This document shows, piece after piece, positions 17,848-30,462 of a DNA stretch of 36,475 nt. The first letter of the stretch is position 1. Each line of letters begins with the position of its first letter. A program made the translations under genes and the position numbers. The notes under the pieces were generated by a model that searched no databases, had not been told where the DNA came from, and saw only the letters and a program-made list of their open reading frames with translations. The DNA comes from Treponema sp. (lineage in GTDB: Bacteria > Spirochaetota > Spirochaetia > Treponematales > Breznakiellaceae): assembly GCA_031286205.1 (NCBI GenBank), contig JAITUR010000076.1, positions 1 to 36,475 on the forward strand, written 5' to 3'.

Positions 17848-19305
17848 TTACGCAGATAATAAAGATTCCAGCAGTATCAAGGAATAATCGATTTCTATCC
17901 TGATCCGGTTTAAAAACGATAAATCTTCGTAATTGGGGCTGGCTCCGCCCGCATAATCGGGAAAATGCGCCCACAGGTAATCACATTCGTTAATTAAAAT
18001 ATGCAGCCGTTCTTTTTGTATAGTTTTTTCGCCGGAAAGCATATCTTTTAGTTCTTGTAATCTTTCTATTTCGCCTTTAATAAAATTATTAATGTCTTCC
18101 TTTGCCGGCGGATATTTATTCGCCGGTTTTTGCGGCGAAGCGGTTTTGCTGTTTCCGCCGAATTCCTTGTCGAATAATTTTTTATAACCCCGCATTACAG
18201 GATTAGTGTAATTTACTCCGTCTCTGACAATGCCTGCGCCAAAAGCCGCAGTATCCAGTAAACCGCCAAAACGATTGTGGTTATTCAGTTTATGTTTATG
18301 CGCAGGAGTACCGCGGGCATGGGACTTATCTATCGTAAAAGAAAAATCCATTCCAGCATGGGTAATTTTTCCGGTTGTAATTCGCCCGGCAATTTCCATA
18401 GCGGTAAGTCCGACAGAACCCAATGGAGAAATTATATTTGGAAGAAGATTTGCGTTTTTTAATCTTTCGAAAACGCGAAGTTCTGTCCATGGTGTCATAA
18501 AAATATAACCCTGCCCTGCAAGTATATTTCCGGACTGCGGAAGCGCGGATAAATCCATTGCGGCGGGAACATTCCATCCTTTACAGCCGACAAAATCGCG
18601 CAGGTTCCAGTGTTGGCTTTCTAAAATTACAACAAGGTCTGGAACAATGTTTCTATCTTTTAACGCGCCTATGCAGGTATCGACACAGATAATTTTATAA
18701 TCCCGTTTTTCCGGAAGATTGTCTAATATTTTATCCAGCGAAGGTCCCGCACCCAATACAAGAACGGAAGAATCGCCCATAGATAATTCGCCGATAGATT
18801 TACGGTTTGGAATAATGGAAAGATTTTTTAGCAAATTACGGATATACAATCTTCCAAGTTTTGCAAGTATAAGCACATTGCTCCAGTCATTTGCAATTTC
18901 CTGATTCAGGGCATCCAGGAGCGATAAATACAAACCGGAAAAAAGCTGCCAGCCGCCTGTAAGTTTTACCATTTCTACACGGCGAAATGTTCTTGCGCCC
19001 CATTCTTTTCGTACAAATTCGTAAAGTTTGTCTATTTTACAGATATTTGTTATACGCAATTTTTTGTCTGCCGGAATATTTGTCTTAAAAGAAATTTCGT
19101 ATAGTTCGGGGTCTGCTTCTATACAAAGAATAGCAGAATTAGGGCAGGATTCAAGATTTGCTAAAAGTGTATCCAGTCCGTAGCCGTACAGGGGCGAGGG
19201 GCAAAGGTAAAGCGTTTTATCGCGGACAGCAACGGCATTCGCCGCTTTCCTGCATCTGGATTCGGGATCGTATGCGGAAAGAAGCGTTATACCGTTTTTA
19301 ATCAC
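17848..19305 (-). CDS. DUF115 / MptE-like motility accessory factor
   Basis: A 485-residue protein of the family that includes motility accessory factors for flagellin glycosylation and MptE-like enzymes. The core motif LVLGAGPSLD lies at about 183-191, followed by strands IICVDTCIGAL and VPDLVVILES and later AGMDFSF, as in the 6-hydroxymethylpterin pyrophosphokinase-like fold. The C-terminal part (about 400-485) is helical and carries a lysine- and proline-rich linker. The start is GTG 19305, which overlaps the TAG stop of the PPIase gene by one base, so translation is coupled. It is likely involved in modifying flagellar filament protein, given the flagellar content of the region, but the link is inferred. 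Confidence 0.8.
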   Translation of the reverse strand: MIKNGITLLSAYDPESRCRKAANAVAVRDKTLYLCPSPLYGYGLDTLLANLESCPNSAILCIEADPELYEISFKTNIPADKKLRITNICKIDKLYEFVRKEWGARTFRRVEMVKLTGGWQLFSGLYLSLLDALNQEIANDWSNVLILAKLGRLYIRNLLKNLSIIPNRKSIGELSMGDSSVLVLGAGPSLDKILDNLPEKRDYKIICVDTCIGALKDRNIVPDLVVILESQHWNLRDFVGCKGWNVPAAMDLSALPQSGNILAGQGYIFMTPWTELRVFERLKNANLLPNIISPLGSVGLTAMEIAGRITTGKITHAGMDFSFTIDKSHARGTPAHKHKLNNHNRFGGLLDTAAFGAGIVRDGVNYTNPVMRGYKKLFDKEFGGNSKTASPQKPANKYPPAKEDINNFIKGEIERLQELKDMLSGEKTIQKERLHILINECDYLWAHFPDYAGGASPNYEDLSFLNRIRIEIDYSLILLESLLSA

Positions 19306-20882
19306 TACGGTGTGTAAACCTGCCAGAAACGATCATCCATTCTTGGATTGCCTAAAAAATAACTCCGCATGGATTGTTCTGTTAACATACTCATCCAATA
19401 AGATAAATACATGGAAGCAACATCTTTTGCCGTGGTTTCTTCTACATTAATTTCTTCTGTGGGCAGCAGCACCAATACATTGTTTCCCTGAACAAGAGGT
19501 TCTGACGGAGTTTGTAATGGTGTGGAAAAAGCAATTTTCCAGAAATTTTCGTTTTTAGATAAACTTTTCATGTAATCTTGATCGAAACTTGGTATATTAA
19601 AATTACTAAAAGAAGAAAACAGATTTATGGGGGATCCGCCATAATATGTGGCAATATCCATAACGCCGTAAACCAATGGGAAGGGTCCAAAATCGTAGAC
19701 ATTCAGATTTTTTGCTCTGGCGGCATCTTCGAAACTTAAGCTATTCATATTTACCCTATTCATATTTACCCTATTCATATTTACCATAGAAGCAAATTCA
19801 TTTGCCTGCTCTATTGCCCAGTCTTCCATGCGTCCTCTGTCGAAATTTCTTAAATAAAAACGCACTCTTTCCATAACAGTTTCGTCCTGGAAATCCGCTT
19901 TTATTAAGTTGTCTTCCGCTCTGTAAATTACCCAGGATTCTCCAACTTTTATTACCGGGCTAATTTCTCCGTTGCGAAGATTTATAACCTTATTTCTATC
20001 TTCCAGAGAAGGTATATCTTTTTCCAGATCGAAGTTATAGCGGATTCCCATATCTCCGCCTCTGTCAGCAAAACCATCTTGGGAATGCGCTCTTGCGGCA
20101 TCTTCGAATGTAATTGTTCCGCTTTGGATAGTGTCCAGTATTTTTTTTGCTTCTCTTTCGCCGGCAATTACGATAATTCTGGATAAATGAATGGAATCGA
20201 AAAGATTTGCGTTAGCATCGGCATAGGCAAGAAATTCGGATTCAGGGTAATCGTCTACATTAATGCTTATTATTTTAAAATTTCTTTCCGGAGAAGACAA
20301 ACTGCCAATAAATTCCGCTTCCGCATTATTCATTAGTAAACCGTCAAAAAAATCGCTTGCGTAAAGGTTTTTGATTATTTCTTCCTGAGTTTGCCGCCAT
20401 ATGGCAAGGCGGGAAGATTCGGACATCCGGTTATATAAAGATGCGGAAAAACGACCGTTTTCCTGAAAATCCGGAAGCCGCGCAACCTGTCTATCGACTG
20501 TTTTTACAGGCACATGATAATTGGATCTTTTCATTATCTGTAAAATAGCGATATGCTCGACAGTTGCTTCATAGGCTTGCCGCCAAACTTGAGCCATAAT
20601 CCACTGGTTTTCTATGTCGTATCCCTGAGATTGGAAATTTTGAACAGCACTTCTCTGAAATCTATTAAAGATATTATCAGGAACCCAGCTTATAGGAGCT
20701 TTGTCGTAGTAGCCAAATGTATTATCCCAACCCCTATTTTTTGGGGATAACAAGTCCCCTGCCAAGAATACCACGGTTACAAGAACAAGAATTACAACCG
20801 AACCAATATAAAGACCCGGGTTTTGCTTAAATTTCCGGGCAATTTCAGATTCCCCCGAGGGGATTTTTTCTCTTTTCGCCAT
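19305..20882 (-). CDS. Membrane-anchored PpiC/SurA-type foldase
   Basis: A 525-residue protein with a cytoplasmic start, one transmembrane helix at about 24-43 and a long periplasmic part, the layout of PpiD. An N-terminal SurA-like chaperone region covers about 60-215. A parvulin-type rotamase region at about 230-325 shows HLSRIIV, FEDAARAHSQDGFADRGGDMG and GEISPVIKVGESWVIYR. Near 367-381 the motif VNMNR repeats, produced by three exact 15-base DNA units. The start ATG 20882 lies five bases after TACCCT with no Shine-Dalgarno. The gene is followed directly by the DUF115 gene. It probably helps fold exported proteins, including T2SS or outer membrane products. Confidence 0.85.
   Translation of the reverse strand: MAKREKIPSGESEIARKFKQNPGLYIGSVVILVLVTVVFLAGDLLSPKNRGWDNTFGYYDKAPISWVPDNIFNRFQRSAVQNFQSQGYDIENQWIMAQVWRQAYEATVEHIAILQIMKRSNYHVPVKTVDRQVARLPDFQENGRFSASLYNRMSESSRLAIWRQTQEEIIKNLYASDFFDGLLMNNAEAEFIGSLSSPERNFKIISINVDDYPESEFLAYADANANLFDSIHLSRIIVIAGEREAKKILDTIQSGTITFEDAARAHSQDGFADRGGDMGIRYNFDLEKDIPSLEDRNKVINLRNGEISPVIKVGESWVIYRAEDNLIKADFQDETVMERVRFYLRNFDRGRMEDWAIEQANEFASMVNMNRVNMNRVNMNSLSFEDAARAKNLNVYDFGPFPLVYGVMDIATYYGGSPINLFSSFSNFNIPSFDQDYMKSLSKNENFWKIAFSTPLQTPSEPLVQGNNVLVLLPTEEINVEETTAKDVASMYLSYWMSMLTEQSMRSYFLGNPRMDDRFWQVYTP
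19741..19785. repeat. Three exact 15-base tandem repeats inside the foldase gene
   Basis: The unit CTATTCATATTTACC occurs three times in a row at 19741-19755, 19756-19770 and 19771-19785. The repeats keep the reading frame and encode repeats of five residues (VNMNR). Copy number could vary by slippage without breaking the frame. Confidence 0.95.
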
Positions 20883-20940: not shown

Positions 20941-21513
20941 TTACTCCTGTGTATTTTGCTGTTTTATCATTTCTAAAAGTTTAATTGCGGAAGGGTCGGC
21001 ATTGCCTAATCTGATAATTCTTTCCAAGAGAATAATCGCCTCTGCTGTCTTACCCTGCATATTATTGGCTACACCGGCTAGAAATAAAATATCTGGGCGG
21101 TTTGGCTCAAGAGCTAAAGCACGATTAAGAAAATTTTCGGCATTTGCAAATTCATTGTTATCCATTGCCAATTCTGCAAGCGCAAGAAGTTGATTTGCAT
21201 TTATTATTTTAAAATAAAGAACTTCCATTGAAAGATATTCAAAGACATCTTCAAAAGTTTCATAGCCCCTTTTTACCAGCTTTATACTATACCTACCTTT
21301 CTTCATATCTTCCAATACAAAACGTCCCTGTATATCAGAATCTGTAATTCTTATACCATTTAGGTAAACCGTTACGCTAGTCACCGGCAAACTGTCATAA
21401 TCATATATCATTGCATACATATAACCTTCGTCAGACAATTTCTTAACTGATGAATGACAAGAAATTAACAAGGATAATACTAAAAATACACCGAAAAATT
21501 GTTTAATTTTCAT
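20941..21513 (-). CDS. TPR lipoprotein, candidate T2SS pilotin
   Basis: A 190-residue lipoprotein. The signal peptide ends in the lipobox LLISC (Cys about residue 19). Residues about 30-90 resemble a carboxypeptidase regulatory-like/PEGA beta domain (VTVYLNGIRITDSDIQGRF and YSIKLVKRGYETF). Residues about 105-185 hold TPR units (ALAELAMDNNEFANAENFL and DILFLAGVANNMQGKTAEAI). It is the last gene of the secretion operon, five bases after the platform gene. TPR lipoproteins such as PilF are pilotins that bring secretins to the outer membrane, so this is a good candidate for GspD assembly. The role is inferred from position and domain type. No closer similarity to PilF can be seen. Confidence 0.75.
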   Translation of the reverse strand: MKIKQFFGVFLVLSLLISCHSSVKKLSDEGYMYAMIYDYDSLPVTSVTVYLNGIRITDSDIQGRFVLEDMKKGRYSIKLVKRGYETFEDVFEYLSMEVLYFKIINANQLLALAELAMDNNEFANAENFLNRALALEPNRPDILFLAGVANNMQGKTAEAIILLERIIRLGNADPSAIKLLEMIKQQNTQE

Positions 21514-21518
21514 CTTCC

Positions 21519-23246
21519 CTACCTTCTATTTATTTCATATATATTATCGTCAATATAGGCAATAAAACTGCCTGATGAACTTAAATTATATCGCATATTT
21601 CCTTCATTTGACTGAACTAGCCTTACTACATCTCCGGTTCTTGTGTTTTTAATGTATATAAAGTTGTTATCGTTATGATCTCTTATACTGCCTATAAATT
21701 CAAGCCATGCAACCCTTTCTATCCTGGAAGGAAGCTGTACAACTACAGGCTGTTCCCTGGCTGCAGGATTTCGGGGAGCAGTTGGGGCAGGCGGAAAATA
21801 ATTTCGACTTATACTGGCAACAGGAACAGGTACAGCAGATTCAGTAGAAGCAGGAGCAAAAGTAGCATTCTCTGTATCTAAAGGATGATATTCTGTTCTT
21901 ATGCGAACCACAATATCAAGCAGGTTTCGCGGGTATAAATTCCTTATTTGAGTTAAATGGACATCCCATGCACGATTTCTTGTTTTTATTTCATAGAGGG
22001 CATTAAAAAATCCGTTTCCAGAACCCCTTATTGAATATTCAACTTCTGTCCGGTACGGCTCATTCATAAATTGATAACTGTTGACAGTACATCCCCATTT
22101 TCTAAATAAAGCGTTAATTGCCTGCCCAAAAGAAGAAGGACTCAAAGGGTATTTCATGGTTTCTTCATCTGTTTCTTCCCCAATAAGATTTTCCAAAATA
22201 AATATTTGTTCGGAAATAGAAAGTATATCATTGTCAATAATTACTGCTTCTACAAGAACAGTTCCACTTAATGAAAATGTGTCTCTATTATTACTGGGGT
22301 GCACTTGATGAAGCCTGGCATTCCGAACAAGCCGGTGTTCTTCAAACTTTCGAAGCAACTCAAGTGAATTTGCAGCTATACCTTCTATCTGAAAAAAATT
22401 ACCATTAAATGTAGCCGAATTTATTCTGGTTTGAGCACCTGCACAATCAGAAATAATCGCAGATATGTCAAAAGGAGTTGTCGTTTTTGTAGAAATTATT
22501 TCATAATACTGAGTTTTTAGCTCTTCAAGTTTTTTAAGCTCTTGCTGTCTTGTAATTCTTTCTTGCTCAAGTCTTTCTTGTTCAATTCTTAATAAGGCGT
22601 TGCGTTCATTTTCCATTTTCTGGTGCTCATGCATTAAAATTGTACCTGTAACCATTAATATCAATAAAACAGCGGCGGCACCTATTCTTTTTAACTTAAC
22701 AACAGGACTTTTTTCGCTATATAATGAAATTTTATGAACATCTGTTTTGCTTAATTCTTCATTGATGTCAAAAAAAACAATATTTTCGTAATCAGAAATT
22801 GATTCGAAAAATATTTTATCTTTTTTATCGCAGTATATTGTTAAACCGGTTTCTTTGTTGTAAAAGTTTTTTACATCATCCAATAAACTGTCTTCATTTC
22901 TTATTTTTACAGTTGATGACTTTATTGCTCCATTTTCCAGGCATGTATAATCCAGCCATGATTTGTCTATAAAAAGTGCATTTACAGTTTGTTTGGAAAA
23001 TCTATGTTGTACAAAAAGTGGAGACAACGGAAGCATTGTACTTCCTGTTTCCTTGTTTAAAACAAAAACCAAATAGCTCCATTTTTTAGAACCATTCTTA
23101 ATAATTTTTACATTGCGTTCCTCTATATTTCCGGGAAATAAACTGTTAAGTTTTATTTTTATAGCAGATTTCAGTTCCCCGCCGCTTAAGTTTGGAATAT
23201 CCAGCGTAAATAACAAATAAGAAGTTCTATTGTAAATTTCAATCAT
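21519..23246 (-). CDS. Bitopic T2SS platform protein, GspL/GspM/GspC-like composite
   Basis: A 575-residue protein with one transmembrane helix. The cytoplasmic part (about 1-180) occupies the place of GspL's cytoplasmic domain but is short. The helix spans about 187-205 and is followed by a charged coiled coil (about 208-250). Two beta-alpha regions of ferredoxin-like type lie at about 258-335 and 365-452, like the periplasmic domains of GspL/GspM or PilN/PilO. A proline-rich linker covers about 455-507. The last 68 residues (FIGSIRDHN, FIYIKN, GDVVRLV, SFIAYIDDN) resemble the GspC/PilP homology region that docks on the secretin. No separate gspC, gspL or gspM is present in the operon. The ATG overlaps the end of the GspK-like gene by eight bases. 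Confidence 0.65.
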   Translation of the reverse strand: MIEIYNRTSYLLFTLDIPNLSGGELKSAIKIKLNSLFPGNIEERNVKIIKNGSKKWSYLVFVLNKETGSTMLPLSPLFVQHRFSKQTVNALFIDKSWLDYTCLENGAIKSSTVKIRNEDSLLDDVKNFYNKETGLTIYCDKKDKIFFESISDYENIVFFDINEELSKTDVHKISLYSEKSPVVKLKRIGAAAVLLILMVTGTILMHEHQKMENERNALLRIEQERLEQERITRQQELKKLEELKTQYYEIISTKTTTPFDISAIISDCAGAQTRINSATFNGNFFQIEGIAANSLELLRKFEEHRLVRNARLHQVHPSNNRDTFSLSGTVLVEAVIIDNDILSISEQIFILENLIGEETDEETMKYPLSPSSFGQAINALFRKWGCTVNSYQFMNEPYRTEVEYSIRGSGNGFFNALYEIKTRNRAWDVHLTQIRNLYPRNLLDIVVRIRTEYHPLDTENATFAPASTESAVPVPVASISRNYFPPAPTAPRNPAAREQPVVVQLPSRIERVAWLEFIGSIRDHNDNNFIYIKNTRTGDVVRLVQSNEGNMRYNLSSSGSFIAYIDDNIYEINRR

Positions 23247-24162
23247 CTATAAAACTCCTATTTATTAGCCTGTATGATTCAATTTCCTGTATTGCGCCAT
23301 TTTTTTCGGGAAATGCCGCTACAATAGCTTCTACCTTAAGAGATGACGGCATACTAAAACTTAATTTCCAAAAAGATGTTTTTGTACCCAAATAATTCAT
23401 TATAGGATGATTTACCGGTATCCTTAAAGTAGCCGCAATATCGCCGCGAAGTACAGGCCCTCCTTTCAATCTATTAACAAGATCATTCGCTCTGTCTCTT
23501 GCCCTTTCTATATTAAAACTTCTTCGTAAAATTAAGGGATAAATAATTTCGGGTTTAACCATGTTTACATTCATCTTGGGAAAATCATTAACCAGAGGGA
23601 AAAGCTCGTTAATTTCAGAAACAGCAAATAATTCGTTAATCCTGCGAAAAGCGAATGATTCCGTATCATTTTTATGGAGCCATCCATAGGAAACACATGA
23701 GTCCCATACTTCTTCTTCATCTTTAATAAATTCACGCCACGGTTCTTTGCTGGTTGAAAGGTCATTTGCTCTAAGCCATGTGGAAAAAGCTGTACCGGTT
23801 CTGTCTTTAAAAATAAAATCTGTTACATTTCTATCCGCCATATCTGCCTCTGAAAGAAAATCAAGATGATAGCCGCTTGAAACATCTGTAATTTCAAGAT
23901 TATACTGCTGATATTTAGAACATAGTTCGCCTATAAGTGCGTTATTTATATCATCATATTGAAACAAGGATAATGGCTGCATTTCCTCTATTATTGTATT
24001 TAGTAATTTATCTGCTTCTGCCCTGTTGTTAAAATAACGAGTATCCGACTGCAAATAAGAAATACCGGAAGCTGCAAACAAAACACCGCCGGATATTATT
24101 GCAACAATAAAAAAGAGAAGCAATACCGCATTAAATTCTACTGCACCGGAATCATTTCTCAT
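23239..24162 (-). CDS. GspK-like minor pseudopilin
   Basis: A 307-residue protein with a pseudopilin N-terminus: leader MRNDSG, then AVEFNAVLLLFFIVAIISGG as the hydrophobic helix. The residue at +5 is Asn rather than Glu, as expected for GspK, which sits at the pilus tip and lacks this glutamate. The large globular domain of about 270 residues is also typical of GspK. The ATG overlaps the preceding pseudopilin stop as ATGA, and its end overlaps the platform gene. It would cap the pseudopilus and prime its assembly with the other minor pseudopilins. Confidence 0.75.
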   Translation of the reverse strand: MRNDSGAVEFNAVLLLFFIVAIISGGVLFAASGISYLQSDTRYFNNRAEADKLLNTIIEEMQPLSLFQYDDINNALIGELCSKYQQYNLEITDVSSGYHLDFLSEADMADRNVTDFIFKDRTGTAFSTWLRANDLSTSKEPWREFIKDEEEVWDSCVSYGWLHKNDTESFAFRRINELFAVSEINELFPLVNDFPKMNVNMVKPEIIYPLILRRSFNIERARDRANDLVNRLKGGPVLRGDIAATLRIPVNHPIMNYLGTKTSFWKLSFSMPSSLKVEAIVAAFPEKNGAIQEIESYRLINRSFIDD

Positions 24163-24569
24163 TTTATTGTATCCAATACCGCAATAGAAGGAAATAAAGC
24201 TATAGTTCGCATTTCATGATTATTTACTTCATATATAACTTCAATACCACGCGGTGCTTTTTGATTTCTAGAAACTATATTAATAGACTTAATATATTTC
24301 CCATATTTAGATTGATACAGTTGAGCTTTAAGAGTATCAATATAGGTTATATTATGTGCCCAATAGGGAATATGGGTTTCATTGGTTTTATTGCGAATAA
24401 AATGATCTATATTTTTTAGGGTATTAGCCGTACCAATTGCCTTAAAAGATTGCGATGCGCCTTTTAAGGCAGAACCTGAAGCGACAACAAACACTCCGCT
24501 TATAATAAGAACAATTGCCACCGTAAGCAATGTTTCCATAAGGGTAAAAGCATTTTCAGTATTTTTCAT
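24159..24569 (-). CDS. Minor pseudopilin (GspI/GspJ type)
   Basis: A 136-residue pseudopilin. The leader MKNTENA is followed by FTLMETLLTVAIVLIISGVF, with Glu at +5 as usual. The residue before the cleavage site is Ala, not the common Gly, which prepilin peptidases tolerate less well. The rest is a small mixed domain with no clear match to GspH, GspI or GspJ. It overlaps the previous gene by 14 bases and the GspK-like gene by four. Confidence 0.75.
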   Translation of the reverse strand: MKNTENAFTLMETLLTVAIVLIISGVFVVASGSALKGASQSFKAIGTANTLKNIDHFIRNKTNETHIPYWAHNITYIDTLKAQLYQSKYGKYIKSINIVSRNQKAPRGIEVIYEVNNHEMRTIALFPSIAVLDTIK

Positions 24570-24783
24570 TTGAAAACTGCCTTAAAATTGTTTCGTTCTG
24601 ACGGTTAATTTCTGTTTTTATATTTTCCAAAAGGCGAGATCCATGATGGACGAATACCGTCATTGCGGTTAATGCGGATGCAAAACAAACGATAACCATA
24701 AACATTGTCAATAATTCACGAAGGAGAATAAAACCATCTGAAGAATTATTTTGTTTATTCACCCCATGAAGTAATATCCTCAT
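24556..24783 (-). CDS. Small minor pseudopilin
   Basis: A 75-residue pseudopilin from ATG 24783, or 68 residues from GTG 24762. The helix start is SSDG then FILLRELLTMFMVIVCFA, with cleavage expected after Gly. Arg occupies +5 and Glu is at +6, so the glutamate is shifted by one. ATG 24783 has GAGGG five bases upstream but gives a long 18-residue leader; GTG 24762 gives a more typical 11-residue leader with a weak ribosome site. The globular part is only about 40 residues, unusually small. It overlaps the gspG end. Confidence 0.65.
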   Translation of the reverse strand: MRILLHGVNKQNNSSDGFILLRELLTMFMVIVCFASALTAMTVFVHHGSRLLENIKTEINRQNETILRQFSNEKY

Positions 24784-25195
24784 TTTTACCCTCTCCTCCT
24801 TCTCTGCCATCAGCGCCAAAAGATCGAATACTAAAAGGTAAACCGTCAGGACCCGGTGTTTTATACTCATAAGGATTACCCCAGGGATCATTTGGAGTTT
24901 TTTTGTAAATGTAAGGCCCAGACCAGCCGGAACTGACAGGTTCTATTGTAGGTATTTTCCAAAGAGCTTCCAATCCCTGTTCTTCTGTCGGGTAACGCCC
25001 ACAATCAATATAGTAGGCTTCCAATGCAACAGATAATGAATCTATCTGGCTGCGTGCCGCCGCTTTTCTGGCTCTGTCTAAATACTGTATTCCAGTAAAC
25101 CCCGCTATCGAGGTAAGAATTAAGACAATTGCAATAACAATTAATGTTTCCATAATTGTCAAGCCGTCATCGGCAAGATACTGTTTTCTTTTCAT
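24755..25195 (-). CDS. gspG: Major pseudopilin GspG
   Basis: A 146-residue major pseudopilin. The leader MKRKQYLADDG is followed by LTIMETLIVIAIVLILTSIA with Glu at +5, then the typical helix. The C-terminal half carries the GspG signature: TEEQGLEAL, SGWSGPYI, DPWGNPYEYKTPGPDG and FSIRSFGADGREGGEG, where the acidic loop binds calcium in known GspG. These features separate it from type IV pilins. The start is ATG 25195, overlapping the gspF stop as ATGA. Longer in-frame upstream readings run into gspF and are rejected. Confidence 0.95.
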   Translation of the reverse strand: MKRKQYLADDGLTIMETLIVIAIVLILTSIAGFTGIQYLDRARKAAARSQIDSLSVALEAYYIDCGRYPTEEQGLEALWKIPTIEPVSSGWSGPYIYKKTPNDPWGNPYEYKTPGPDGLPFSIRSFGADGREGGEGKNEDITSWGE

Positions 25196-26394
25196 ACTAA
25201 CCTTCCATATAAAGAAAATAATGGTAATGCAAATTGCACTATCATAAGTAATACTAGTATACCTACAATTAATATTATACATGGTTCCAGCAGGTTCATA
25301 AGCCTTTCTGACATTCGTTCTACATCTGACTGGAAATATTCTCGTATTTGCGAAAAAACCGGCTCTACTGCGCCCGTACGCTCCCCCACTGCAATCCATG
25401 TTGATATATAGGGGGGAAATTCCTTAAAAAGACTGAAGGCATCTGAAAGCTGTTCCCCCTTTAGCAATATAGTATGCACCTCTGATATAGCTCTTGCATA
25501 CGCGCGGTTTCGTACCACAGAGGATGTCTCCTTTAATGCAGTATGCACATTTATACCCGCCCCTGTCAACATTTCCATAGCAAAAGAAAAGTCCATAGTC
25601 TGTATTGATTTTATATAACCGCTGAAAAAGGGTATTCTAATTAAAAGGTAATCAGTTAAATATGCGAATTTAGCGGAAAATTTTCGGAAAAAAACCGCTC
25701 CAACGGCAGAAGCAGCAATAAATAGAAAAACAGAAAATGTAACCCATACAGAACGATAAACACGAGCCATTTCCATTACAGTTTCCTGATCTGAACCCGC
25801 TACAAAAGCCTCAAAAATTTCAGCCATTCTTGGAAGTATAAATGTTATTATTCCTATACTACCGCCAAGAGCCACACACAAGATAATTACCGGATACCAT
25901 AAAACATTGCCTACTTTACCGCGAATTTTTTTTTCGTTTCGCAAGTACATGCTTAACCGTTGGAAAACAGCTGCAACTGAACCTGTCTGCTCGCCAAGTT
26001 TTACCAATGACTGATATAAAGGCGAAAAAGACGGCGCATGCATTTTAAGAGCTTCATGCAGGGGCAAACCATTTTGCAAAGCCCGTAAGATACTTTTGCT
26101 TAACCATTCTGTTTTAGAATTAGCGGTTACTGTGCAGCACATAGAAATGGCATCTTGAATAGTAAGACCGGATTTTAGCAAAGATGTCATAATTTCTGTA
26201 AATTCCAATACAATATTACGGTTATAGTTCTTTTTTGATCTAAGTATTGCAGCTTCGTTGATATGAGAATATTTAATAAGTATATGTTCTGTATTATTAA
26301 AAGAAGAAATAAGCTCCTGCTCGCTGGATGCTTCTTTAATAATGCTGGATTTTTTCCCGGAAGTTGTTACTATAGAACATCGATAATAAGGCAT
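25192..26394 (-). CDS. gspF: T2SS inner-membrane platform protein GspF
   Basis: A 400-residue GspF, the usual length. Two repeated cytoplasmic helical domains are seen: the first around 60-165 (EFTEIMTSLLKSGLTIQDAI and LVKLGEQTGSVAAVF), the second around 265-360 (DFSFAMEMLTGAGINVHTAL and IAVGERTGAVEPVF). Transmembrane helices lie at about 167-187, 217-236 and 371-391. It overlaps the gspE stop by one base (TAATG). It converts ATPase motion into pseudopilus growth. Confidence 0.95.
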   Translation of the reverse strand: MPYYRCSIVTTSGKKSSIIKEASSEQELISSFNNTEHILIKYSHINEAAILRSKKNYNRNIVLEFTEIMTSLLKSGLTIQDAISMCCTVTANSKTEWLSKSILRALQNGLPLHEALKMHAPSFSPLYQSLVKLGEQTGSVAAVFQRLSMYLRNEKKIRGKVGNVLWYPVIILCVALGGSIGIITFILPRMAEIFEAFVAGSDQETVMEMARVYRSVWVTFSVFLFIAASAVGAVFFRKFSAKFAYLTDYLLIRIPFFSGYIKSIQTMDFSFAMEMLTGAGINVHTALKETSSVVRNRAYARAISEVHTILLKGEQLSDAFSLFKEFPPYISTWIAVGERTGAVEPVFSQIREYFQSDVERMSERLMNLLEPCIILIVGILVLLMIVQFALPLFSLYGRLV

Positions 26395-27866
26395 TAGAAA
26401 ATTACCTCCCTCTCTACTTCCTGTATAGTTGTAATACCATCAGCTACCTTTTGCAAAGCATTTTTTGCAAGACTACCCATTCCATGTAAAAGCGCGTATT
26501 TTGATATTTCGTTAATTGGCTTTTGCATAGCTATCATTTCTTCAATTGCTTTATCGACCATAAATACTTCGCTTATTATTGTACGGCCTTTATAGCCAGT
26601 ATCTTCACAATCCAGGCAGCCGGAACTTTCGTACATGGAATTGCCTTCCACCTTATACTTTGTGAATAGCGATTTAATTTTCTTGTTTATTGTAACATTT
26701 TTTCTGCAAGACTGACAGACTTTCCTTACAAGTCTTTGTGCAACAGAACAGCGTAAAACGGCGGCAATTAAAAATGGTTCTAACCCCATATTTTCCAATC
26801 TGGTAATAACGGAAACACTGTCGTTTGTATGCAGGGTAGATAATATTAAATGGCCTGTTAAAGATGAACGCAAAGCAAGTTCTGCTGTTGCAGTATCACG
26901 AATTTCACCTACCATAATTACATTTGGGTCCTGTCTTAAAACCCTGCGAAGCATACTATCAAATGAAAGGTCTATTTCATCATTAATTTGAACCTGATTA
27001 ACGCCGGGTATTAATTGTTCAACCGGGTCTTCTATTGTTATTATTTTTAAATCCGGTATTGGAAGGTTTGCAATAAGAGCGTGCAAAGTAGTAGTTTTAC
27101 CGCTTCCTGTAGGACCAGTTAATAAAATAAGACCAAAAGGATTTTTAACCGCAGCTTTAATAGCATTAAGTTCTTTTGGATAAAATCCCAGTTCATCCAA
27201 AGACAATAGTTTTGCCGAAGTATTAAATATTCTTAAAACAATGGACTCGCCGTCTGCAACAGGAATAATGGAAACACGCAGATCAACAGTTATATTTTCC
27301 AGTGTTACAGACATTCTGCCATCCTGGGGAAGTCTTTGTTCCAATGGATTTAAATTGGCCATAATTTTTATACGGTTAGAAACAGTGTAAAATACCGATT
27401 TATCGATTTTTTTTATAGTCCGCATTACACCATCTATACGATAGCGTATTTGTACAGATTCTGCCTGAGCTTCTATATGAATATCTGATGCTTCCAGCCT
27501 GATTGCTTCTATACAAATTGCATTAATAATATTTACAACAGGAGCTCCGGAAGTAATGGAATCCAATGCTATAGAACGATCGTTCTCTTTTGCTCTTTTT
27601 GATGCTACCGGTTCTATATCTGTAGTTTCGCCTATAAAAGTTGCCAGCTCAGCCTTGGTTATGCCAAAAAAGACGGTTTTTTTAGGCATATGAAAACTTT
27701 CCAGATCGTGGCGGAGCTGGGTATCAGAACCATCTACAATAGCAATATGAACTTCTTCTTGTGTTTCGTTTAATTTTACTGCTCCGCGATAACTTATAAA
27801 ATCCCTGTTATATTGTTCGCCATGTTCGGAATTAAACTGGAAATTTTTTAAGCTTACCCTTTTCAT
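26394..27866 (-). CDS. gspE: T2SS assembly ATPase GspE
   Basis: A 490-residue hexameric secretion ATPase. Walker A is GPTGSGKTT (251-259), the Asp box lies near IITIEDPVEQL (275-285), Walker B is IMVGEIRD (317-324), and the His box is GHLILSTLHTNDS (338-350). The zinc-binding C-terminal module has the paired cysteines C384/C387 and C417/C420, typical of GspE and PilB. The N-terminal domain is short (about 100 residues), so the part that contacts GspL is reduced. The start ATG 27866 overlaps the gspD stop. No retraction ATPase (PilT) is nearby, in line with a secretion system rather than a twitching pilus. Confidence 0.95.
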   Translation of the reverse strand: MKRVSLKNFQFNSEHGEQYNRDFISYRGAVKLNETQEEVHIAIVDGSDTQLRHDLESFHMPKKTVFFGITKAELATFIGETTDIEPVASKRAKENDRSIALDSITSGAPVVNIINAICIEAIRLEASDIHIEAQAESVQIRYRIDGVMRTIKKIDKSVFYTVSNRIKIMANLNPLEQRLPQDGRMSVTLENITVDLRVSIIPVADGESIVLRIFNTSAKLLSLDELGFYPKELNAIKAAVKNPFGLILLTGPTGSGKTTTLHALIANLPIPDLKIITIEDPVEQLIPGVNQVQINDEIDLSFDSMLRRVLRQDPNVIMVGEIRDTATAELALRSSLTGHLILSTLHTNDSVSVITRLENMGLEPFLIAAVLRCSVAQRLVRKVCQSCRKNVTINKKIKSLFTKYKVEGNSMYESSGCLDCEDTGYKGRTIISEVFMVDKAIEEMIAMQKPINEISKYALLHGMGSLAKNALQKVADGITTIQEVEREVIF

Positions 27867-30046
27867 TAGACCCCGTTTCTAAGTACATATCTATTAAAGT
27901 ATTCTTCGTTTCTTTTTTCATAATTAATTGATTGTACCTGTCCATAATGTACGTGCGGAATTATATAAATTATCATCTCTGTGGTATTTTCCTGAATTAC
28001 CAAATCCTGAAAAAGCCTTCCAAGCAGAGGAATGTCTCCTAATATCGGTAACTTTCTTATACTTTCTACTTTGTCCACCTGCAACAATCCGCCTAAAATA
28101 ATAGGTGTACCTGATCTTGTGCGAATTTGTGCATTAACCACTCTTTCTGATGTAGGGGGTGGATTTGTAGTTGCACTAGCATTGGTGCCGCTTTCATCCT
28201 GTTTTGAAACTGCGGCATTTACATTCATAGTTATCATTCCATCGCCAGAAACCCAGCCATTAATATTCAGCAACAAACCGGAATTAATTTCGCGGGTAAC
28301 ACCGGTATAAAACGGTTTTCCGGTTTCCGGATCTATTGTTGTGTCACGATAACGAAATGTTGTTGTATTTTCAAATTTTATATCTTGTCCGGATATGCCG
28401 TTTAAAGTTGTATCTGCCAGTACTTTTGCTTTATCTTCTCCTATTTGTAAATTAAGATTTAAAGCAAATTGATACCCAAACTCTGTAATTATGTCAAAAT
28501 TAATATTCATTAAGTTGGAAAAAGATCCCGAAAACATCATTGGAGAACCATTAGCAGGGGCGGTATGTCCACTTGAAACATTTAATCCACTTGCCCAGGT
28601 AACATTGTCGCTTCTCTGGTACTGCATAACCAATATTTGATAGCGTATTTGCGGTTTTGGCTGATCTATCAATTGCAGATGTTCTTTAAATTGCTGTACT
28701 TTTTCTTCTGTTCCCCGGAAAAAAACTAAAGTTGGATCAGCCGAAACAACAATTTCTTCTTTTGTTACAGATGGCGGTAAAAACTGCAATAATTCTTCAC
28801 TTTTTATATAACGCAAATGAACCGGTATTCCGGCGTTTCTTCTGTCAACTATTTGTAAAAAACTTTTATATTGTTCATCCTGCACATCTGTTACATACGA
28901 AATAAAAGCATTGGAATTAGGTATAATCTGGGGGTTTAGCCTTGATAGTTCCTGCGGCAATAAAGTTATAAAATCTTTTACCGGCATATAATGAACTTCG
29001 AACCTTTTAAACATTCTGTCTTCTCCCGGCACATCAATAACAGCAAGAAATTCCGCTATGGGCATTATTTCTTCTGTGCTGCCTGTAAGATACACAGAAT
29101 TAGAAACTTTGTCTGTCTTCATAAAATTAGAAGCAGAATACTCATTAGGTAAAAGTGCTGCTGCGCTTTCTACAGAGATATACTGAAGTTGAATAACTAT
29201 TATATCTTTAAGTTTCTTAAGTATGTCTCTGCGTTGAACTTCGAAAATATAATAAATTGATTCGCTGACTACAAAATCGCAATTTGCTTGCTCCAATACC
29301 AGACGCAGCAATTGTTCGAATGTTTTATCCTGAAAATAAAGGTTATCTATAGATGTATCATTTCGTTGAAGCATTGCATATTCTTTATTTCCCGTTCTGA
29401 ACAACAAAGATATTATTGATGAAAAAGAAGCGCGCTGTATATTCATTGAAAATAAATCGCCTCTTGTAGTAATTGAGTTGCTTCCCAGCCGTCCTGCGGT
29501 TGCTTGACCTTGATCCGGCGTTCTTCTGATATAAAAAGCGTTATTTTCCGTTATTATTGTATACTCCGGATACCTTCTTATTATAATTTCCAGAATATCA
29601 ATTAAACTTGCTTTTTCGCTGTTTAAGCTTATAGTGGCACGCGGAAGCTGGTCATAAATTATTGTCCTGCCAACATTACGAGATAAAGCTCTTACAAGCA
29701 TTTCTATGTCAACATTTTCTGTATTTATATTTATTAATTCATCTTCCGCACTGATCTTTATTCTGGAAACAAAATAAGCGTTATTCCTTTTTTCTACAAA
29801 AAGATTACAGGCATCTGTAAAGCGTAATAAGGCTTCTTCAAATTCAGAATCGCTAAAATGAAAGGTTGCAGTACCCATGACAGTTTCATCAACAATTATA
29901 GATTGTCTGCCTGCGTCCGCCAGCACCATAAGTATGTCAGCTATGTTCTGGTTACGGAACTGCATAGCTCTTATTGCTTGTCCATATACATTAGAAAGAC
30001 CTAAAAAGAAAAAACACATAAATAAGACAATAAAAAATTTCTTCAT
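27866..30046 (-). CDS. gspD: T2SS outer-membrane secretin GspD
   Basis: A 726-residue secretin with a signal peptide (MKKFFIVLFMCFFFLGLSNV, ending in YGQ). An N0/STN domain covers about 25-100 (MQFRNQNIADILMVLADAG), followed by N1 to N3-type domains to about 475 (for example VIQLQYISVESAAALLP and FKRFEVHYMPVKDFITLLP). The secretin core covers about 480-710, with RKLPILGDIPLLGRLF and MIIYIIPHV near the end. The start at ATG 30046 is preferred over an in-frame 25-codon extension because the signal peptide begins there and the ATG overlaps the peptidase stop (TAATG). Confidence 0.95.
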   Translation of the reverse strand: MKKFFIVLFMCFFFLGLSNVYGQAIRAMQFRNQNIADILMVLADAGRQSIIVDETVMGTATFHFSDSEFEEALLRFTDACNLFVEKRNNAYFVSRIKISAEDELININTENVDIEMLVRALSRNVGRTIIYDQLPRATISLNSEKASLIDILEIIIRRYPEYTIITENNAFYIRRTPDQGQATAGRLGSNSITTRGDLFSMNIQRASFSSIISLLFRTGNKEYAMLQRNDTSIDNLYFQDKTFEQLLRLVLEQANCDFVVSESIYYIFEVQRRDILKKLKDIIVIQLQYISVESAAALLPNEYSASNFMKTDKVSNSVYLTGSTEEIMPIAEFLAVIDVPGEDRMFKRFEVHYMPVKDFITLLPQELSRLNPQIIPNSNAFISYVTDVQDEQYKSFLQIVDRRNAGIPVHLRYIKSEELLQFLPPSVTKEEIVVSADPTLVFFRGTEEKVQQFKEHLQLIDQPKPQIRYQILVMQYQRSDNVTWASGLNVSSGHTAPANGSPMMFSGSFSNLMNINFDIITEFGYQFALNLNLQIGEDKAKVLADTTLNGISGQDIKFENTTTFRYRDTTIDPETGKPFYTGVTREINSGLLLNINGWVSGDGMITMNVNAAVSKQDESGTNASATTNPPPTSERVVNAQIRTRSGTPIILGGLLQVDKVESIRKLPILGDIPLLGRLFQDLVIQENTTEMIIYIIPHVHYGQVQSINYEKRNEEYFNRYVLRNGV

Positions 30047-30462
30047 TATATAATCCCCAAAGAAAGGATTGCTCCCGCGCTTAAAAATGGACCAAATGGA
30101 ATTTTTGTGGTTTTTGGCCAACGGTAAACAATTATTCCTATTGCATAAATTATTATCCCCAATAAAGCCGTGAAAATAAATGCAGAAAAAATCCTTTCAA
30201 GCCCAAGTACATAGCCAAGAACAGCGGCATATTTGACATCCCCAAAACCAATACCATTGGTAAAATACCAGACGGCACCAAAGAAAATAAATGCCATAAA
30301 AGCAGTAAAAACACGCTCAGAAACCGGCAAAATGGCACGACTAGAGTCCGAAATAAACATTACCGGCACAAAAAAAGCCAATAAAATATCCGGAATCCGG
30401 TATGTTTTGAGGTCAATTAGCGCAATTCCAATACATAAGCAAATAACTGCAAAATTAAACAT
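30046..30462 (-). CDS. Prepilin peptidase, catalytic half only
   Basis: A 138-residue membrane protein of the A24 aspartic peptidase family that cleaves pseudopilin leaders. Catalytic D17 lies in ALIDLKTYRIPD and D75 in the GFGDVK motif. The N-terminal methyltransferase domain with its Cys-x-x-Cys pairs, present in full-length PilD/GspO (about 270 residues), is missing, so N-methylation may not occur. Several hydrophobic helices cover nearly the whole chain. It is the first gene of the secretion operon. ATG 30462 has no Shine-Dalgarno and lies nine bases after a TATAAT hexamer. It would process the four pseudopilins downstream. Confidence 0.9.
   Translation of the reverse strand: MFNFAVICLCIGIALIDLKTYRIPDILLAFFVPVMFISDSSRAILPVSERVFTAFMAFIFFGAVWYFTNGIGFGDVKYAAVLGYVLGLERIFSAFIFTALLGIIIYAIGIIVYRWPKTTKIPFGPFLSAGAILSLGII

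Follow-up and report, generated by a model that had tools for sequence, protein, structure and literature searches.

A contig of 36,475 nucleotides from a Treponema species of the Breznakiellaceae (assembly GCA_031286205.1, contig JAITUR010000076.1; hereafter the window, meaning this whole stretch) carries a tight operon that reads, on the minus strand, short prepilin peptidase, gspD, gspE, gspF, gspG, two minor pseudopilin genes, a gspK-like gene, one long gene and the gene of a TPR lipoprotein. What does the long gene encode? Its open reading frame (ORF; 21519..23246, minus strand) runs from ATG through stop over 575 codons, overlaps the gspK-like ORF (23239-24162) by 8 bases and stops 5 bases ahead of the TPR-lipoprotein ORF (20941-21513). 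No plus-strand ORF of at least 80 amino acids in the window's ORF list overlaps it, and the opposite frame, when translated, contains many stops. The protein is kept along its full length in relatives (60, 58, 57 and 35% identity), which marks the ORF as more than a chance reading. Very probably, the product is a single-chain protomer of the assembly platform of a type II secretion system (T2SS), in which GspL, GspM and the homology region (HR) of GspC follow one another. The domain make-up, the gene order, the kinship with the split genes for L, M and C and the lack of convincing separate copies were all computed here.

An AlphaFold2 model of the whole chain, built on an alignment of 24 fused relatives (mean pLDDT 85.7, pTM 0.47), divides it into seven parts. 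Residues 1-170 (22737..23246, minus strand like all parts of the gene) form an alpha/beta domain that resembles the actin-like cytoplasmic domain of GspL and PilM. One long helix, residues 181-252, follows: its first part is the sole predicted transmembrane (TM) helix (residues ~182-205; 22632..22703), the one segment that passed the hydropathy cut, starting at about residue 182, and the remainder (residues ~206-252; 22491..22631), a continuous model helix with a pLDDT of 88-94 by tens, would extend as a coiled coil toward the periplasm. Two ferredoxin-like domains come next, the first of the GspL/PilN type (residues 256-332; 22251..22481; model unit 258-330), the second of the GspM/PilO type (residues 365-455; 21882..22154; model unit 370-452) and devoid of its own TM helix. 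A proline-rich, largely disordered linker (residues 456-510; 21717..21881), with pLDDT values below 50 at 455-473 and 488-506, leads to a beta domain of probable GspC-HR/PilP type (residues 511-575; 21522..21716), whose six strands lie within residues 515-572. When the C-terminal 70 residues were modelled alone (alignment of 37), the pLDDT was 91.6 and seven strands were seen. A preliminary description, made from the window's letters alone, had already pointed out the single TM helix, the coiled coil, the two ferredoxin-like regions, the proline-rich linker and the C-terminal beta segment, and the model places its three residue ranges (258-335, 365-452 and 508-575) correctly within a few residues. 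Its GspL/GspM-like part is likewise present, except that the actin-like domain at residues 1-170 had been missed.

Comparison of the structure models with known structures matched the folded parts to GspL/PilM, to the periplasmic domain of GspL, to PilO/GspM and, weakly, to GspC-HR/PilP. Structural matches include 2ych, 2rjz and 2lc4, and among those listed is 8ab1, the solved PulL-PulM complex of ferredoxin-like domains. The chain thus holds the features of the GspL family (an actin-like cytoplasmic domain, and a single TM helix followed by a periplasmic ferredoxin-like domain) as well as the ferredoxin-like periplasmic domain of the GspM/PilO family, and the models support the reading that a complete GspL, cytoplasmic domain included, is contained in it. 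The ferredoxin-like folds and, for the C-terminal domain, GspC-HR as top structural match are what the preliminary description had anticipated, the latter match being weak and with PilP close behind within the best four rows; if 3jc8_Pa is PilP, as we take it to be, PilP accounts for three of these four. Sequence searches were less informative: the window protein found nothing useful in Pfam, NCBIfam or PDB sequences, and neither the T2SSC nor the PilP profile of Pfam matched the C part, the PilP control being positive in just one of 14 genomes. Residues 253-454 also had a long match to tandem regulatory domains (9d2r, 8y1j), a hint that the two ferredoxin-like domains pack together; this match was left unused because the pTM is too low.

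If the three functions reside in one chain, separate copies should be hard to find, and the preliminary description had stated that the operon lacks gspC, gspL and gspM and had named such genes elsewhere in the genome as a counterargument. We looked for them and did not find them convincingly. T2SSC matched in none of the 14 genomes searched, with positive controls in three of the 14, E. coli among them; the Pfam model of PilP matched in none of six, a weak negative given a control positive in one of 14 genomes and below the cut-off there. T2SSM reached at most 17.6 bits in five of six genomes, never over the cut-off; its match in the host, to a 132-aa ORF, scored 11.2 bits (E 0.47). PilN found nothing in the host; across genomes this search (matches in 10 of 14, none over the cut-off) mainly picked up unrelated ORFs by chance and was set aside as supporting nothing alone. 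Profiles of split L and split C proteins recovered from the host the fused gene plus one 11-bit match (E 0.48) inside a 1011-aa ORF; the split-M profile was not run. In genome G266, which we take as the complete chromosome of Breznakiella homolactica, the T2SSC, PilN and PilP models likewise gave no match and T2SSM a single one of 12.5 bits. As far as sequence profiles can tell, the host therefore appears to have no convincing separate gspL, gspM or gspC, the three parts mapping to one chain.

The strongest support comes from comparison: what occupies the same slot in relatives? We surveyed 83 stretches including the window, the other 82 lying around matches of the fused protein or of the TPR lipoprotein; neighbourhoods of the latter were examined at 62 of 99 places, the remaining 37 being mostly weaker matches, and all 15 places outside the order were included. 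Classes were assigned by hand to 64 of the 83 stretches, in some three- and two-gene rows with one member recognised by position and TM segment only: 21 have three genes, 11 two and 32 one. The three-gene form consists of an L protein of ~320-415 aa (N-terminal domain, then TM helix and ferredoxin-like part), an M protein of ~135-195 aa (N-terminal TM helix, ferredoxin-like) and a C protein of ~140-220 aa (N-terminal TM helix, beta domain and, in most cases, a proline-rich linker between them); with two genes, L is accompanied by a fused M-C. One-gene stretches comprise 18 of the window type, five of a shortened-L type and nine of a second subtype. The 19 unclassed stretches (L016, L051, L060, L063, L074, L075, L094, L098, L100, L103, L107, L110, L111, L113, L115, L126, L128, L130 and L132) ended at a contig border, had broken genes, yielded no C gene (L100) or had no L-M-C genes beside the TPR gene.

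The survey bears on another explanation, namely that separate genes were joined by a sequencing error, or by faulty assembly or binning. The window does come from a fragmented genome (2.34 Mb in 126 contigs, 94.5% complete), but the same fusion recurs in 18 stretches including the window, one of them from the complete B. homolactica chromosome. For practical purposes, these relatives refute an artefact, and we regard its probability as negligible. The probabilities that we attach to this and to the alternatives below are not mutually exclusive, nor do they exclude parts of the explanation that we favour.

Fused and split forms differ in their TM segments, which were counted by one hydropathy rule in genes recognised by profile, L genes standing outside the count. 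Exactly one hydrophobic segment was found in 18 of 18 M, 17 of 17 C and nine of nine M-C genes (in two M rows it is internal, probably where the mechanical ORF start lies too far upstream), and again exactly one in 23 of 23 fused proteins of the window or shortened-L type. The N-terminal TM helix of GspM type that split M genes possess is hence absent from the fused chain, and its HR-type part has no TM helix or lipid anchor of its own, no second segment being present. For the window type, the sequences thus suggest that each join went along with loss of an inner TM helix. Such loss fits a working fusion, since the joined parts must remain periplasmic. The same count weighs on the idea that one chain is made and then cut into L, M and C, with stoichiometry and topology staying canonical. 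The long disordered linker would be a natural place for a cut, but the freed M and C parts would be left without a membrane anchor, a second hydrophobic segment being found in none of the 23 fused proteins; we consider this course of events very unlikely. By the same rule, the second-subtype fusions L109 and L125 have two segments.

Do the fused and split proteins correspond part by part? Profile A8 of fused proteins was compared with profiles of split proteins that share no rows with it, each E-value being that of a single comparison. Split L aligned to columns 4-333 (99.9%, E 3.9e-33), split M to 368-452 (97.3%, E 2.7e-11) and split C to 469-578 (98.1%, E 6.6e-14), so that L, M and C map on the fused chain in sequence order. 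Rows had partly been chosen by profile, which biases these scores upward; independent support for the correspondence comes from the shared slot, which has gspK (or gspF) on one side and the TPR gene on the other. E-values from the survey profiles were not taken as proof, the iterated profiles already containing split genes. For the second subtype (eight of its nine rows), the match to A8 (98.1%, E 7.5e-14) spans the two ferredoxin-like parts and the beginning of the C domain.

The link from the C part to GspC runs through the split genes. Among 296 genomes of the phylum, 19 matched the T2SSC model of Pfam at E 0.01 (eight over the cut-off), all of them outside the window's class. From the best twelve of these (eight over the cut-off, ~270-305 aa) and GspC of E. 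coli K-12 we built profile A12, to which split C proteins (A14) aligned with 91.2% and E 1e-6 over the HR and the stretch preceding it; four control comparisons, of A14 and A12 with TPR-lipoprotein and M profiles, gave 0.2-4%. The profile comparison that the preliminary description had proposed thus connects the split C proteins with GspC. Compared directly, the C-terminal domain set A9 matched A12 weakly (11.4%). A comparison of A9 with A14 was set aside as partly circular, four of the 12 A14 loci also being in A9, and A8 against A14 was used in its place. Other searches gave hints at best: split M matched T2SSM in two of eight cases (best E 0.0076) and M-C fusions in three of six (best 0.0037), all below the cut-off, and split L matched PilN in five of 11 (best 0.0017); unrelated models appeared at near E-values, such as DUF4131 at 0.0074 in the M-C list. 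None of eight split C proteins matched the relevant Pfam models. Run as profiles against the PDB, the alignments of split C and of split L produced nothing beyond chance matches; that of split M had 31 matches (best E 0.0074), most of them to coiled-coil or engineered proteins and two to GspD. With hhalign, fused or split profiles found no match in the single E. coli K-12 GspL or GspM sequences, as expected with single sequences.

Alternatively, the gene could be a GspL-GspM fusion whose C-terminal beta domain does another job—contacting substrate, peptidoglycan or a lipoprotein—with the secretin reached otherwise, for example through the TPR lipoprotein. PilP among the best four structural rows, GspC-HR as the top one, the GspC topology of split C genes (TM helix, usually a proline-rich linker, HR-like domain) together with their match to the GspC profile, and the lack of any alternative GspC candidate seen in the genome all speak against this reading, which we therefore hold to be unlikely. 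That platform and secretin-contacting part share one chain, as the preliminary description proposed, is borne out by the structure models, by the split relatives at the same slot and by the fused and split profiles, while the contact with the secretin itself is a prediction.

A further question is whether the operon serves type II secretion at all, or rather a type IV pilus or another filament machine, in which case the fusion would correspond to PilM-N-O-P and not to GspL-M-C. The order of the L, M and C parts mirrors pilM-N-O-P, the structural matches to PilM and PilO were at least as good as those to Gsp proteins, and GspD (27866..30121; Secretin 1e-28; N0-type domain(s) by type_II_gspD_N0 at 9.3e-8 in two stretches) passed the Pfam Secretin cut-off yet missed that of the GspD model TIGR02517. 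On the other hand, the major pseudopilin GspG (24755..25195, start set by eye at the prepilin leader; T2SSG 8e-37) scored 126.7 bits with TIGR01710, over the curated T2SS cut-off of 88.85, and the GspE ATPase (26394..27866; E 3.4e-121) is the sole PF00437 match at E 1e-20 in the host genome, so that no separate retraction ATPase is seen; G266, too, has one such match. Together with GspF (25192..26394), assigned by conserved neighbour position in relatives alone and without a family search, a GspD-E-F-G core is present in one operon, three members by profile and GspF by position. We judge a pilus machine to be quite unlikely.

The remaining operon genes, too, are all on the minus strand. Names of the minor pseudopilins are putative: the GspK-like ORF (23239..24162) rests on position and conservation in relatives, with no match in Pfam and nothing meaningful in NCBIfam; the GspJ-like one (24159..24569) on weak N-methylation motif matches and position; the GspI-like one (24556..24810) on position and conservation. 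The short GspO/PilD-like prepilin peptidase lies at 30046..30462 (Peptidase_A24 2.5e-15), and gspD probably has its true start near 30046. The TPR lipoprotein (20941..21513), a frequent partner gene in the survey with TPR matches and weak carboxypeptidase-regulatory-like matches, is a candidate secretin pilotin.

How did the fusion arise? In a quick tree from GspE/F/G/D, which covered 55 of 65 labelled loci (ten had too little sequence), a branch with an SH-aLRT of 100 sets off the 21 rows of window-type and shortened-L fusions, and the eight second-subtype rows, including L128, labelled by position only and with its gene unverified, fall elsewhere. The minimum number of changes between one-gene and split forms is two, and the tree prefers two origins. 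Topology tests were run on 50 rows, excluding the long or gappy L097, L104, L112, L125 and L131. Constraining all one-gene rows together was not rejected (AU p 0.117), and we thus claim either one or two origins of the full fusion. Placing the six two-gene rows in one clade was rejected (p 3e-5), which indicates either repeated joining of M and C or a later return to separate genes. Classed loci outside the window's class (L104, L105 and L106) all have three genes, as have canonical systems, and the three-gene form is probably ancestral.

Taken together, we consider it rather probable that the following hold jointly: in these bacteria the fusion works uncut, as a protomer with one TM helix and a fixed C:L:M ratio of 1:1:1; a T2SS can do without a second GspC copy per GspL-GspM pair and without TM helices in its GspC and GspM; and spirochaetes fused the genes stepwise, M and C having been joined more than once independently. 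Mechanistically, the actin-like domain would bind the N-terminal domain of GspE in the cytoplasm, by analogy and from the match to 4pht only. From there, the chain would cross the membrane once and continue as a coiled coil into the periplasm, where its two ferredoxin-like domains, of GspL and GspM type, would stand in for the GspL-GspM pair. The HR-type beta domain could then reach the N0 domains of the GspD secretin via the flexible linker of ~55 residues. With one chain per GspE subunit, about six HR domains would face the larger secretin ring, a symmetry mismatch that the linker would absorb. Binding partners, copy number and the integrity of the chain are, in this scheme, inferred.

Canonical T2SS proteins (PulC/L/M, XpsC/L/M) have folds alike part by part and share the operon surroundings, with D, E, F, G, the minor pseudopilins and K ahead of L and M. 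They are, however, three proteins with three TM helices, in contrast to one chain with one here, and canonical gspC stands at the head (E. coli K-12 is an example), whereas the C part comes last in the fusion. The spirochaete three-gene operons (e.g. L105, L106 and L077) share the slot and are homologous part by part, but their L, M and C proteins are separate, each with its own TM helix. The PilM-PilN-PilO-PilP alignment complex of type IVa pili has similar folds (2ych, 2rjz, 2lc4) and the same order of parts, yet its members are separate proteins, while here one chain stands beside a T2SS pseudopilin set. Canonical GspC, moreover, has a PDZ or coiled-coil end (excerpt of PMC3169554), and the present chain ends with the beta domain, nothing following the HR. 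A precedent comes from type IV pili, where PilO-PilP fusions (the same excerpt cites Q88CU9 from Pseudomonas putida) likewise join a ferredoxin-like platform part to an HR-type secretin-binding part; having two parts, they compare to the spirochaete L plus M-C operons and differ from the triple fusion. We recognised no description of an L-M-C fusion in the open-licence full-text literature searched, and regard the GspL-GspM-GspC(HR)-type fusion as a variant of the T2SS platform with graded natural intermediates, two-part PilO-PilP fusions being already known.

Why does this matter? The number of GspC copies per GspL and GspM is unsettled. PilO-PilP fusions were noted in 2011 as part of an argument for equal numbers of M and C, alongside one HR per N0 in published structures (excerpt of PMC3169554); quantified gels of a Klebsiella complex gave C:E:L:M:N = 2:1:1:1:1 (excerpt of PMC6882859); and six CLM units were modelled for Xanthomonas in 2025 (excerpt of PMC11981180). 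An L-M-C fusion would fix the ratio at 1:1:1 covalently. It should thus interest specialists of both T2SS and type IV pili, for the disputed ratio and as a source of a one-chain platform for structural work; B. homolactica, whose chromosome is closed, is a named strain that carries it. A wide survey recorded spirochaete T2SS with a model in which gspC is mandatory (excerpt of PMC6668835), so that gene-by-gene detection may miss or misjudge fused systems. An abundance of exported hemicellulases is predicted from Breznakiellaceae genomes (excerpt of PMC11481507), which makes the export route there worth testing.

The fused gene is patchily distributed: five of 39 genomes of the window's genus and eight of 98 relatives overall carry it. 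Homologues in the named collection (seven loci) stem from Treponema and spirochaete metagenome-assembled genomes and from the complete chromosome of B. homolactica RmG30. The carriers are presumably termite or cockroach gut dwellers, which the record titles do not state, and B. homolactica is, we assume, cultured. Little of the actin-like domain is left in the shortened-L fusions (L052, L053, L054, L055 and L057; ~460-500 aa), whose TM segment lies at 74-77 in four and at 112 in L055, where the mechanical ORF start is further upstream; the contact with GspE may there shrink to a small N-terminal piece. In the second T2SS subtype (L109, L114, L116, L117, L123, L124, L125, L127 and L129), no GspK-type gene was detected in the stretches, and the L-M-C-like fusion is its own, 400-510 aa long with a shortened C domain; L123 was classed from its own 512-aa ORF and lies outside A13, and L125 (G014) belongs to the window's own genus.

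Several single loci add variety. Genome G385 has a broken-up fused gene (L060) and, ~50 kb apart, separate L, M and C genes (L121), gspD extending over two ORFs in both stretches. In L095, L096, L097, L099, L101 and L102, the L, M, C and TPR-lipoprotein genes sit between gspF and gspG and not after gspK. The C-type gene of L104 (L104:2449-2892, minus strand) starts with a lipoprotein-like signal instead of a TM helix, as in PilP, which is a lipoprotein. Deep Spirochaetota (L140-L151) have a long GspC (~270-305 aa) with, as judged by eye, a PDZ-like second half, unlike the C proteins of the window's order, which end after the HR-type domain. The TPR-lipoprotein profile matches in 92 of 390 genomes of the order, sometimes without gsp genes within the stretch taken. 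Just downstream of the operon, the window encodes a SurA/PpiD-like peptidyl-prolyl isomerase (19305-20882, minus strand), for which no homologue at E 0.01 appeared in the seven relative stretches compared.
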